DNA from: Phycisphaerae bacterium
Lineage (GTDB): Bacteria > Planctomycetota > Phycisphaerae > Phycisphaerales > Phycisphaeraceae
Assembly: GCA_030432595.1 (NCBI GenBank)
Contig: JAUIGU010000029.1
Coordinates: forward strand, 1 to 49,606
Direction: 5' to 3'
Length of the DNA: 49,606 nt
Position 1 is the stretch's first letter, and the number at the start of each line of letters is the position of its first letter. The position numbers and the translations under genes were made by a program. Below are positions 18,189-46,980 of the stretch, piece by piece. Below the pieces are notes generated by a model. That model was given only the letters and a program-made list of their open reading frames with translations, made no database searches and had not been told where the DNA came from.

Positions 18189-18282
18189 GGGTGCCACGGT
18201 CGCTTGCGACCGTGCCGTACTTCCCAAACAACCGTTCGTCTGACTTTTCTGATGCGCACGGTTGCAAGCAACCGTGGCACCC
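18189..18282. repeat. REPIN-like palindromic element, copy 1
   Basis: Two inverted REP-like units face each other. The left one, GGGTGCCACGG, opens a perfect hairpin CACGGTCGC/GCGACCGTG. The right one has the hairpin CACGGTTGC/GCAACCGTG and ends GGCACCC. About 40 unrelated bases separate them. The element at 27788-27880 has the same ends and a different middle. It fills most of the gap between the glycosyltransferase gene and thiE. Confidence 0.8.
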
Positions 18283-27771: not shown

Positions 27772-27787
27772 GTCGGGCGCGACAGTT

Positions 27788-27880
27788 GGGTGCCACGGTC
27801 GCTTGCGACCGTGCTACGGCGGACATGCGAATCGCCGCCGCAAGGACACCAAGTCACGGTCGCAAGTGACCGTGGCACCC
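27788..27880. repeat. REPIN-like palindromic element, copy 2
   Basis: Begins GGGTGCCACGG with the perfect hairpin CACGGTCGC/GCGACCGTG and ends GACCGTGGCACCC, mirroring copy 1 (18189-18282). The middle about 40 bases differ completely. The right hairpin here keeps pairing through a G-T pair where copy 1 has a different base pair. It sits between the hypothetical membrane protein start and the GrpB-family gene end. Confidence 0.8.
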
Positions 27881-27903
27881 AACTCACATCCGTGTTGCGT
27901 CTC

Positions 27904-28497: not shown

Positions 28498-29172
28498 TCA
28501 CGCCCGCGCCTTCACCAGTGCCCCCGCCGCGTCCGCCAGGGCCTGGTGCAATAACTCGTGGTCGCCGCACGCCGTGATGTACGCCTCGAGCTGATCCACC
28601 CGCGCCTCCGTGCCCGGCGGCGCATCCACCGCCGCCAGCGCCGCGTCGCCCAGCGCCTCGGACGCGCTCACGAACCAGTGCCGCGGCGTCACGCCCGTGC
28701 CCAGCGCATCGTCCGGCTGCCGCGGCCGGTTCCGCAGCGTCGCCGGCGGGGCATCCACTTCACAACACACCGCCGGGCCCTCGAAACTCCGCAGCGTCCA
28801 GCGCGCCGCGTCCGCGTCGTTGTCCGCCCACAGCACCTCAAGATGCTCGCCGGTGTTCCGCGCCGTTTGCAGCAGCGCCTGCGCATCGTCCGCGCTGCGG
28901 GGCCGAGTCAGCACCACGCACCCCGCGCCCACACTTTCCCCCGCCGGCTCGTCACCCTCGGCCGAACCCAGCTGCACCGCCGCGTCCGCCGCGATCATCC
29001 GCCGCTGCCGCCGCGCCTCCTGCAACGGCATCACCACCCGGGCGTACAACGACCAGTCCCTCGCCCCGCGCGCCGCCGCCAACGCCTCCAGGCACAACGC
29101 CTCGCACCCGAGGTAGTCCATGTCCACCAGCTTCGCGCTGGCCTCGTGCATCAGGTCCTCAACATTGGGCAT
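28498..29172 (-). CDS. conserved-looking hypothetical protein
   Basis: 224 residues, cytosolic. The N-terminal about 55 residues ('LMHEASAKLVDMDYLGCEALCLEALAAARGARDW') look like a short TPR-type helical pair. The rest is alpha/beta, with 'GAGCVVLTRPRSADDAQALLQTAR' and 'PRHWFVSASEALGDAAL'. Function unknown. The ATG at 29172 is chosen because TACAAT (29179-29184, minus strand) ends 6 bases upstream. That -10-like box includes two bases of the terminal repeat of the neighbouring GxxExxY unit, so the unit's arrival may have shaped this promoter. Confidence 0.6.
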   Translation of the reverse strand: MPNVEDLMHEASAKLVDMDYLGCEALCLEALAAARGARDWSLYARVVMPLQEARRQRRMIAADAAVQLGSAEGDEPAGESVGAGCVVLTRPRSADDAQALLQTARNTGEHLEVLWADNDADAARWTLRSFEGPAVCCEVDAPPATLRNRPRQPDDALGTGVTPRHWFVSASEALGDAALAAVDAPPGTEARVDQLEAYITACGDHELLHQALADAAGALVKARA

Positions 29173-29182
29173 CGGGGCATTG

Positions 29183-29652
29183 TAAGAAACCACGGAGGCA
29201 CAGAGAACTCGGAGAGCACCGAGTTAAAGAATCAGAGGATGATCCGCCGGATGCCGTCTTTGAGGACGGGTTCGTGGAAGTTCAACAGCAAGCCGAGTTT
29301 GATGCCTGTGGCTTTCAGGTAAGCCAGTGTCTGGGTAACGTGGGCATCATGCAGCTTGGTGACGGCCTTCAATTCAACGATGAGCCGCTCATCGATCAAC
29401 ACATCAATCCGGCCTTCTCCGAGCGAGCGCCCCTTGTACTTCAGTTCGACCGGAACCTAGCACGCGAACGGTATACCACGCAATTCGAGCTCAATACACA
29501 CCGCCTTTTCGTAAGTTGATTCAAGAAAACCTGATCCAAGGTTCCAATGAACCTCAATCGCAGCCCCGATCACCTGCCCGGTCAGTTGATCCAATTCATC
29601 GCTCATATTCGCTCCGTGTTCTCCGCGCCCTCCGTGCCTCCGTGGTTTCTTA
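29183..29652. mobile_element. 470-bp unit with terminal inverted repeats carrying a GxxExxY gene
   Basis: Perfect 19-bp inverted repeats TAAGAAACCACGGAGGCAC lie at 29183-29201 and, inverted, at 29634-29652. Weaker pairing extends inward to about 41 bp (29183-29223 with 29612-29652; about 35 of 41 match by hand). The only content is the broken GxxExxY gene (29232-29606), which almost touches both repeats. The right end supplies the TAA stop of the aspartate kinase gene. The left end supplies part of the -10 box of the next gene. There is no transposase and no clear target duplication, so it would be non-autonomous or a resident cassette. Confidence 0.65.
29232..29606 (-). pseudogene. GxxExxY family protein, interrupted by an in-frame TAG
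   Basis: Translating the minus strand from ATG 29606 gives 124 codons with a full-length GxxExxY protein plan: 'GQVIGAAIEVHWNLG', the name motif GFLESTY (residues 26-32), 'ELELRGIPFA', 'VPVELKYKG', 'GRIDVLIDERLIVELKAV', 'AYLKATGIKLGLLLNF' and 'KDGIRRIIL'. Codon 50 is TAG (29457-29459), where relatives usually have Gln before VPV, so one C-to-T change (CAG to TAG) explains it. The rest of the frame is intact, implying recent inactivation. The D...E-x-K pattern resembles a PD-(D/E)XK nuclease core. A sequencing error cannot be excluded. Confidence 0.85.
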
Positions 29653-31056
29653 CCTCACGAACGCCGCGTAGATCGCCCGCACGGCTTTCTCGAAGTCGTC
29701 GCTGTTGACGCCGACGATGATGTTCAGCTCGCTGGAGCCCTGATCGATCATGCGGATGTTGATGCCCGCGGTCGCGAGCGCGCCGAACAGCCGCGCGGCC
29801 ATGCCCGGCTGGGTCTTCATCGCCCGGCCGACCGTCGCGATCAGCGCCAGGTCCGCATCGACCTCTATGGTGTCCGGCTCGACCTCGCGCTTGAGCGCTT
29901 CCACCACGTCGTCGAGCTTGCCTTCGAGCTGCGTGTCCTCGACCACCAGCGAGAGCGTGTCGATGCCCGAGGGCATGTGCTCGAAGCTGATCCCGGCCCG
30001 GCGGAGCACGCCGAGCACCTTCTCGCCGTAGCCGACCTCGGTGTTCATCAGTGCTTTTTCGAGCGCGATGATGGTGAAGTCCTTGCGGCCGGCGATGCCG
30101 GTGATGGGCACGGCGTCGGCGGTGGGCTGGACCTGGAGCGGGTGTTCGTCGGTGTTGGCGACGATGGTCGTGCCGGGGTCGTCGGGGGCGTTGGTGTTGC
30201 GGATGTTGACGGGGATGCCGGCCTCGCGCACGGGGAACACGGCCTCGGGGTGCAGGACCGTCGCGCCCATGTACGAGAGCTCGCGCAGCTCACGGTAGGT
30301 GAGCAGCTCGATGGTGCGGGGGTTGTCGACGATGCGCGGGTCGGTCATGAGCAGGCCGGACACGTCGGTCCAGTTTTCGTAGACGTGGGCCCCGAGGGCG
30401 CGGGCGACGATGGCGCCGGTGATGTCGGAGCCGCCGCGGGAGAAGGTTTTGATGCGGGGCGGGTCGTGGTCGTCCTTGCCGGGTTGCGTGCCGTAGAAGC
30501 CGGGGATGACGACGTGCCCGCCGCCGGCGTGGTCCACGGCATCGGCGACGGCGGCGTAGGTCTTGCCCGCGTCGAGCCGGCCGGCGGGCGTGAAGTGGAT
30601 GACGTCGGCGGCGTCGATGAAGGCCCAGCCCAGGTGCGCGGCGAGCAGGCGGGCGTTGAGCGCTTCGCCGCGGCTGGCGGCGTAGTCGGGGCCCTGGCCG
30701 TCGGCGGCCTCGCGTTCGATCCCGGCCTCGACACGGTCGAGTTCCTCGGTGAGCCACCCCGTGTCTTTGACGCCGAGTTGGTCAGCGATCTCCACGAAGC
30801 GCTGCCGCACGGGCTCGAACACGCCGGCGATCCCGTCGCCGAGCGCCGCGGTGTTGTGGCATTGGTAGAGGCGGTCGGTGATCTTGGCGTCGTGGTCGCT
30901 GCGCCGCCCCGGGGCCGAGGGCACGGCCACGCGTCGCGCCGGGTCGGCGCGGAGGATCGCGGCGGCCTTGGCGATCTGGGTCGCGTCGGCGAGCGACGTG
31001 CCGCCGAACTTGGCGACCTTGAGGGGGGGCACGGGGGTGGGCGTCACGGGGGCCAT
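29650..31056 (-). CDS. lysC: aspartate kinase
   Basis: 468 residues from the second candidate start. It has the catalytic motifs 'KVAKFGGTSLAD' and 'TFSRGGSDITGAI', plus 'WTDVSGLLMTDPR' and 'MGATVLHPEAVFPV', then two C-terminal ACT domains ('ITGIAGRKDFTIIALEK', 'LIATVGRAMKTQPGMAARLFGALATAGINIRMID'). It phosphorylates aspartate at the head of the lysine, threonine and methionine pathway, and the ACT domains suggest feedback control. The frame is open to GTG 31092. TACGCT lies 9 bases upstream of ATG 31056. The stop TAA lies inside the terminal repeat of the GxxExxY unit. No lysine riboswitch is seen. Confidence 0.92.
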   Translation of the reverse strand: MAPVTPTPVPPLKVAKFGGTSLADATQIAKAAAILRADPARRVAVPSAPGRRSDHDAKITDRLYQCHNTAALGDGIAGVFEPVRQRFVEIADQLGVKDTGWLTEELDRVEAGIEREAADGQGPDYAASRGEALNARLLAAHLGWAFIDAADVIHFTPAGRLDAGKTYAAVADAVDHAGGGHVVIPGFYGTQPGKDDHDPPRIKTFSRGGSDITGAIVARALGAHVYENWTDVSGLLMTDPRIVDNPRTIELLTYRELRELSYMGATVLHPEAVFPVREAGIPVNIRNTNAPDDPGTTIVANTDEHPLQVQPTADAVPITGIAGRKDFTIIALEKALMNTEVGYGEKVLGVLRRAGISFEHMPSGIDTLSLVVEDTQLEGKLDDVVEALKREVEPDTIEVDADLALIATVGRAMKTQPGMAARLFGALATAGINIRMIDQGSSELNIIVGVNSDDFEKAVRAIYAAFVR

Positions 31057-31093
31057 GGGGCGATCAGCGTAGCGGAGTGGGGCGCCCCTCACG

Positions 31094-46855: not shown

Positions 46856-46980
46856 CGCGGGTCTGGGGCTTGGGGTTTGGGGTTTGGAAGAAGAAGCGAC
46901 CCATCTAAGGCGGGCGTTCGACGATGCCGACCCATCGCCAAGCCCAACCCCACCCCCAAGCCCCATACCCGAGACCCGCG
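46856..46980. repeat. G-rich imperfect inverted repeat
   Basis: The left arm begins CGCGGGTCT and continues GGGGCTTGGGG with further TTTGGGG. The right arm (46938-46980) read on the other strand gives GGGGCTTGGGGG preceded by CGCGGGTCT and a short insertion. The arms are about 50 bases apart. No gene crosses them in a credible frame, although low-complexity frames exist. Confidence 0.6.

Follow-up and report, generated by a model that had tools for sequence, protein, structure and literature searches.

Between two same-strand genes of a bacterial genome, a pair of inverted repeats encloses a short unit whose sole gene encodes a GxxExxY protein. Is this unit mobile, is it one of many, and what does its protein do? 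The function of GxxExxY proteins is not treated in the literature that we searched, and six iteron words are absent from it; preprints and most subscription journals were outside the scope of that search, so either may have been described elsewhere. The original prediction, made from the DNA letters, was a cassette of terminal inverted repeats (TIRs) and a nuclease gene that is either self-mobile or moved in trans.

A GxxExxY gene between inverted iteron arrays

The window, by which we mean the whole 49.6-kb stretch of DNA analysed, is the entire contig 49 of a 4.39-Mb genome assembled as 73 contigs. Of the 90 inverted-repeat pairs in it (20 nt or longer, no more than 1500 apart), the pair that bounds the unit ranks first (Table 1). 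The arms are 42 nt each, 86% complementary, and separated by 388 nt. The outermost 20 nt of the two arms, read from the sequence, are identical. Each arm consists of AAACC followed by four words of the CACGGAG type, the iterons, whose starts are 8, 9, and 9 bp apart (read from the sequence). With up to three mismatches allowed, ACCACGGAGGCACAGAG has two matches in the window, which are the two arms; at least two matches occur in 5 of 100 shuffles. The ends recur in the genome, where CCACGGAGGCACRGAG, with up to two mismatches, has 45 matches, compared with 12 for the reversed control pattern.

Table 1 Features of the unit and of its flanks in window coordinates.
Feature	Position	Strand	Basis
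Left arm	29182..29223	+	Inverted-repeat search; iterons read from sequence
Left-arm iterons	CACGGAG 29191-29197, CACAGAG 29199-29205, CTCGGAG 29208-29214, CACCGAG 29217-29223		
Right arm, inverted	29612..29653	-	Inverted-repeat search; iterons read from sequence
Right-arm iterons	CACGGAG 29644-29638, CACGGAG 29636-29630, CGCGGAG 29627-29621, CACGGAG 29618-29612	-	
GxxExxY gene (PF13366/TIGR04256, PD-(D/E)XK), in-frame TAG at 29457-29459	29232..29606	-	Profile match
TAA stop of neighbouring ORF 29650-31092, within right arm	29650..29652	-	Sequence and ORF list
Next same-strand gene; likely ATG 29172, ten bases off left arm	28498..29172	-	ORF list and orthologous start in congener
Neighbouring gene, aspartate kinase by motif	29650..31092	-	ORF list

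The gene between the arms matches PF13366 with 130.9 bits (cut-off 22) when it is read through one TAG. This TAG is in frame at codon 50, so the frame is not intact. Interrupted in this way, the window copy is probably a decayed or dead member of its family. In-frame stops of this kind are found in 11 of the 216 GxxExxY loci that we collected.

Both neighbours reach or approach the arms. The right neighbour, which we take to be aspartate kinase from its KFGGTS start motif, stops inside the right arm; its orthologue in the congener G001 stops at its own TGA. The longest frame of the left neighbour begins with a GTG at 29193, inside the left arm. The TACAAT at 29184-29179 is only 6 bp from the likely ATG of this gene, three of its six bases lie within the arm, and no sigma-70-type promoter was found in 29050-29750.

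The original prediction is largely right at this locus. A TIR-bounded unit with a GxxExxY gene held, as the arms and the PF13366 match are confirmed, and so did perfect 19-bp TIRs (~41 bp with mismatches) and a right end that provides the TAA of aspartate kinase. The claim that the left end contributes to a TACAAT -10 box is weak. The gene had been taken as intact, with the in-frame TAG overlooked, and this part failed.

Other repeats accompany these features. Two alike hairpins of ~100 bp in the window (27784-27884 and 18189-18282; GGGTGCCACGGTCGC..., arms 97% and 93% complementary) represent a second interspersed palindrome family with no relation to the iteron words. A hairpin of G-rich 7-letter words (TTGGGGTTTGGGG) at 46856-46980 may be another word class with a like plan. 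Single arrays with the window's word type at L003-L018 sit inside a longer conserved interspersed repeat of the source genome.

Iteron ends at other loci, dispersed arrays, and vacant sites

The source genome has seven PF13366 genes, and six of them lie between inverted ends scoring at least 18, i.e., share the TIR-gene-TIR plan. The words differ among them (C27, CGCAGAG/CGCGGAG; C63, CGCGGAG; window, CACGGAG; C32, CACAGAT/CGCAGAT; C50, CACGAAG/CGCGAAG; C38, CACAAGA-like). The seventh gene (C17) has an end score of 7. The six intact paralogues score 106.6-149.4 bits against TIGR04256 (cut-off 35).

The 216 loci comprise the seven of the source genome, the best 80 of 266 in GTDB genomes, and 129 of 153 hits in relatives. 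Using 150-bp flanks and counting a score of at least 18 as inverted ends, we find such ends in 165 of 213 testable GxxExxY loci. The controls give 4 of 525 for other ORFs of those loci and 102 of 2117 for mismatched pairs of flanks. With two duplicates removed (L299 is L131, L300 is L128), the count is 163 of 211. Some duplicates remain in the 213-locus end count, the spacing count, the tree, the independent and close pairs, the 62-ORF control, the single-residue rules, the unit-length and duplication test, and the orientation count. An earlier test with 200-bp flanks gave 61 of 85 loci; for mismatched pairs the figure was 34 of 839, and for shifted segments 6 of 303. For a held-out set, two predictions were written down before the loci were opened. 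This set combines 27 of 30 phylum loci (three were already known) with 60 stretches, 87 in all, and comprises 84 loci after removal of three that repeat earlier loci (L400, L439, and L443). Inverted ends (at least 18) are found in 63 of the 84, compared with 0 of 62 other ORFs.

Judged by record titles and scores, loci with ends occur in Planctomycetota, Myxococcota, Cyanobacteria, Chloroflexota, Proteobacteria, Bacteroidota, Acidobacteriota, and Verrucomicrobiota, mostly in metagenome bins. The 48 of 213 loci that score below 18 include one source-genome gene and a divergent group, L305-L314. These ten relatives' loci without ends cluster on the protein tree, and could be a domesticated lineage.

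The iterons are tandem 7-letter words of type CRCNRAK, mostly three per arm and four in the window unit. Three words make up the commonest arm (187 of 346 arms), and the spacing is 8, 9, or 10 bp in 586 of 652 cases. The median unit length is 482 bp (165 units). Judged by the longest open frames, both neighbours lie on the gene's strand in 82 of 148 units and both on the opposite strand in 18; neighbours are mis-assigned by this method, including those of the unit in the window. All four plasmid records that were opened have both neighbours on the strand of the gene. Two GxxExxY frames are near each other at L063, L107, L148, L066, and L146, and are in tandem at the first three. At L057:2465-2866, the longest frame begins upstream of the left iterons, so the words would be translated (NHRDTETQR); the start codon was chosen mechanically.

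GxxExxY genes are present in 63 of the 101 relatives searched and in 138 of 294 genomes of the phylum. Searches with one query protein find them in 7 of 72,556 plasmid records and in none of 50,697 phage records. Scanning viral contigs for a single peptide pattern yields one stretch, an unconfirmed match, and PHROG yields one weak endonuclease match for one of six proteins. On these three results, a phage origin was rejected. A search of four loci for known RNA families gives only two matches, which are far under their gathering scores.

Palindromes that have such words and no gene are dispersed as well. A generic three-word pattern has 184 matches in the source genome, compared with 7 for the reversed pattern, and 6615 across 101 genomes, compared with 570 for the control; long tandem runs (e.g., in G042) contribute overlapping matches to these numbers. 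The number of arrays rises with the number of TIR-type GxxExxY genes (Spearman 0.76, 101 genomes). This value leaves out 18 genes that were presumed, on the basis of low profile scores or a weak hit, to lack TIRs; only 10 of the 18 were read. With all GxxExxY genes counted the coefficient is 0.69, and the reversed control pattern also correlates, more weakly (0.43). The median is 82 arrays in the 54 genomes with a TIR-type gene, compared with 4 in the 47 without one (largest 194).

The arrays match the genes in class as well as in number. CGCCAAG arrays have a median of 28 where a CAAG-class gene is present (13 genomes) and 0 where it is absent (88); CRCNGAT arrays have a median of 70 in the 12 genomes with a gene of that class and 0 in the other 89. 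The reversed controls for the two patterns give 0 and 3 matches, and the gene classes rest on 136 loci of 160 PF13366 hits. There are many exceptions. Nine genomes have at least 20 three-word arrays and no TIR-type gene, and no gene of the class is detected in five genomes with at least ten CAAG arrays (the source genome among them) and in 15 with at least ten GAT arrays. G025 has 194 three-word arrays, 158 of the GAT type, and no PF13366 match; its bin is 87% complete.

In the source genome, at least two gene-less hairpins, at C24:5892/5934 and C30:59102/59144, match the C27 gene's own ends in their words and in an unequal 9/10 spacing. Palindromes are also nested in mirror order, with CAAG outside GAG or GAT, or GAG outside GAT (C9, C17, C18, and C19); by eye, the palindrome at C17:102363 has four layers. 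At L490 (G000:C18:3120-3977), nested CAAG and GAT arrays surround ~800 bp that include a GGGTGC-type hairpin and an open frame that looks decayed, and it is possible that other cargo is present inside nested units.

Some sites are vacant in related genomes. Only one genome of the search, G001, belongs to the same genus. It lacks the window unit, whose two neighbours are separated there by 25 bp, and has no PF13366 match. The junction was read from the sequence, and the MAFFT alignment misplaces the gap. Units are also missing at the sites of L153 in G038, L140 in G058, and L139 in G097. A gap shared in genus g9, which we take to be lysS-lolE from the protein ends, is differently occupied. It holds a GxxExxY unit in G009, and the matching flanks are 122-144 bp apart in G050, G048, G041, G036, and G045. 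By eye, these intervals contain other palindromes, whose words are GCAGGAAA-like in G050 and G048, CTAGAAA-like in G041 and G036, and CAGGAT in a second copy in G045; the first copy in G045 gives no clear reading.

At the sites that we read, the arrays sit between genes, and we noticed no sequence that these insertion sites share. An attempt to define exact insertion points was dropped, because the intergenic parts of the congeners have diverged too far for alignment. The longest direct matches that flank the two ends of 165 units are as in mismatched ends, i.e., no target-site duplication is detected, with unit boundaries uncertain by a few bases. This absence would suit a mechanism unlike DDE transposition.

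The cassette claim is supported, and the choice between movement in cis and in trans is undecided. It would have been refuted if the ends had no second copy, or if every relative carried the unit at the same site; neither was the case. The existence of gene-less units bearing matching words is consistent with it.

The protein and its iteron words

All six paralogues match PDDEXK_3 in Pfam, and none matches a transposase model up to E 10. Among 78 sequences, D75, E85, K87, and Q99 are conserved at 90% or more and Y103 is invariant. D, ExK, and QxxxY form the motif of RecB/Cas4-like PD-(D/E)XK nucleases, which these conserved residues match. The AlphaFold2 model of the L057 protein has a mean pLDDT of 94.9. 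Its nearest solved folds are SSO0001 (4ic1), which we take to be a Cas4-family protein, and phage-type exonucleases including LHK-Exo, with moderate scores. The best Foldseek match, 4ic1, has E 0.003, probability 0.99, and TMq 0.43, with none at E 0.001 or below; a fold comparison with VIA-align gives Z 9.1 over 103 residues with an rmsd of 4.6. A search for solved relatives by sequence gives only one hit (E 0.076). PADLOC gives weak Cas4 matches (best E 0.005), each for one of six proteins. A role in defence was rejected, since these matches are only weak.

The words differ between genes yet track the protein tree. We took as the word of a locus the commonest CNRAK match in ends scoring at least 16, and left out loci without a word (e.g., 9 held-out loci). 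On a tree of 216 proteins, 164 of them with a word, the last letter (G/T) changes 4 times, compared with a mean of 31.4 and a minimum of 27 in 200 shuffles. For the four-letter word there are 56 changes, compared with a mean of 99.0 and a minimum of 91.

The covariation extends to single residues. Within the NRAK part of the word, base 1 covaries with domain column 2 and base 2 with column 5; in the L057 protein these columns are residues 12 and 15, which the model places in a predicted N-terminal helix. With duplicates removed, Asp2 with Ala5 is found at 25 of 25 loci with a CAAG word and at 0 of 137 others. Thr5 goes with G at base 2 in 69 of 71 cases, and Ala5 with A at base 2 in 39 of 44. 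Among close pairs that differ at base 2 (n = 53, median identity 0.58), column 5 has the top excess of all columns and differs in 87%, compared with 39% of controls; among those that differ at base 1 (n = 62), column 2 has the top excess and differs in 87%, compared with 46%.

On a tree built without columns 2 and 5, there are 11 changes of C at base 1 and 10 of the Asp/Ala pair. For the CAAG word, only three independent pairs lie on supported branches, of which two agree, none opposes, and one shows no difference. Residue covariation with the last letter was tried and rejected, because four changes on the tree are too few.

In the held-out set, Asp2 with Ala5 is found at 2 of 2 CAAG loci and at none of the 56 others to which a word was assigned, and Thr5 goes with G at base 2 in 37 of 37 cases, for which there was no prior prediction. 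Single-residue rules assign base 1 in 41 of 60 cases, compared with 37 by the commonest base, and base 2 in 50 of 59, compared with 46. For the 21 held-out proteins less than 60% identical to the first set, the rules give 12 and 17, compared with 11 and 16. The residue code is thus real in trend but partial.

A putative dispersal system, its rivals, and known systems

The recurring plan and the protein-matched words point to an unrecognised system that, we infer, probably scatters short palindromes through bacterial genomes. Reasoning by analogy, we think it likely that this is a dispersal system comparable to REP/RAYT and built on a Cas4-like nuclease instead of an HUH transposase. That the protein binds the iterons, cuts them, and thereby drives dispersal is inferred throughout; none of these steps has been observed, and the evidence on movement is limited to presence and absence between species. 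The window unit of ~0.47 kb would be one decayed copy of a mobile unit. GxxExxY would be a small Cas4/lambda-exonuclease-like PD-(D/E)XK nuclease encoded between inverted iteron arrays, which its own N-terminal helix would most likely read, with residue 2 specifying base 1 and residue 5 specifying base 2 of NRAK. The nuclease would bind both arrays and bring the arms together. The two arrays could pair as a hairpin or cruciform, and the nuclease would nick or process the paired arrays, by which the unit and gene-less palindromes with cognate arrays would be copied or moved. Their targets would be short intergenic gaps, often the middle of older palindromes.

A bolder reading can be put as one claim, which in our judgement is as apt to prove wrong as right. 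GxxExxY proteins would be sequence-specific nucleases that read iterons word by word via a simple helix code (residue 2: Asn for A, Asp for C, Glu for G; residue 5: Thr for G, Ala for A), they would be an independent counterpart of REP/RAYT, and the intergenic regions of many bacterial phyla would be filled with nested, rapidly exchanged palindromes. A two-residue code would leave the specificity open to direct test.

The rival that survives best, which we nevertheless consider unlikely, is that GxxExxY genes are passengers, i.e., that REP-like palindromes are spread by another enzyme and the genes merely settle inside them. Some genomes with arrays have no detected GxxExxY gene, or none of the cognate class, and nesting shows that palindromes attract insertions. 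However, word and protein covary down to two residues and array classes track gene classes. Mere settling predicts neither, which argues against this rival.

We regard it as very unlikely that GxxExxY is a DNA-binding regulator of its own and other genes, with the arrays as operators. The arrays are intergenic at the sites read, and recognition of the word by the protein is very likely, though no binding has been observed. Against this, the nuclease residues are conserved, the arrays are inverted pairs that are nested and swapped between congeners, and a second inverted array downstream of the gene would be superfluous for autoregulation.

There is as little to recommend a conventional DDE-type transposon or a MITE whose transposase comes from elsewhere. 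The terminal inverted repeats, gene-less relatives, and empty sites fit such an element. However, direct repeats at the outer ends of the 165 units do not exceed those at mismatched ends, the only gene inside is a PD-(D/E)XK nuclease with no DDE transposase within the unit (transposases elsewhere in the genome were outside the survey), and specificity tracks the GxxExxY protein.

A homing or defence nuclease that cuts unoccupied or foreign DNA, with arrays that mark self or are a trace of repair, would suit a PD-(D/E)XK fold near Cas4-like and phage-type exonucleases and the weak PADLOC Cas4 matches, but is very improbable given that the insertion sites read have no noticed sequence in common and that thousands of dispersed arrays are unexpected for a homing nuclease.

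If the dispersal system that we favour is real, it would give a function to the widespread orphan nuclease family GxxExxY, account for the large class of intergenic palindromes counted above, and mean that REP-like dispersal has evolved twice, the second time around an unrelated enzyme.

Several known systems share part of this plan. MITEs and other short intergenic palindromes are gene-less units of ~100 bp between genes. Gene-less arrays resemble them in size and position, but the iteron words fall into classes matched by a resident nuclease family and no target duplication is seen. Rpn/YhgA-like proteins are also PD-(D/E)XK nucleases; they have once been linked to DNA mobilisation, but belong to a different Pfam family (PF04754) (PMC5350276, PMC10327210). 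Cas4/lambda-exonuclease-like PD-(D/E)XK nucleases are found beside cas genes or in phages. GxxExxY shares their D, ExK, and QxxxY and has its nearest solved folds among them, but is only ~130 residues long, has no conserved cysteines for an iron-sulphur cluster, and is encoded between iteron arrays. In TIRYT/TIRtrons, a gene is likewise flanked by longer inverted repeats, some of them from repeated families, but the enzyme is an HUH-type tyrosine transposase and the shared TIR motif, GGGGWSAS, differs from the iteron word (PMC3733652).

The closest parallel is REP/RAYT (REPtron), in which a gene is flanked by inverted repeats, gene and repeat coevolve, repeat abundance tracks the gene, and mosaics occur (PMC2817692, PMC8266576). 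Here too, a nuclease gene lies between two inverted copies of a genome-dispersed repeat, enzyme and repeat coevolve, repeat number tracks the presence of the cognate gene with many exceptions, and mosaic composites are found. The differences lie in the enzyme and the repeat. RAYT is an HUH/tyrosine enzyme related to IS200/IS605, whereas GxxExxY is of the PD-(D/E)XK type. A REP is a small palindrome in its own right and frequently carries GTAG at one end, whereas a GxxExxY arm consists of tandem direct 7-letter words and a palindrome arises only between the two arms (judged by eye, without a hairpin test of single arms). As enzyme class and repeat architecture are unrelated, GxxExxY units are not members of REP/RAYT; by analogy, they appear to work like it.
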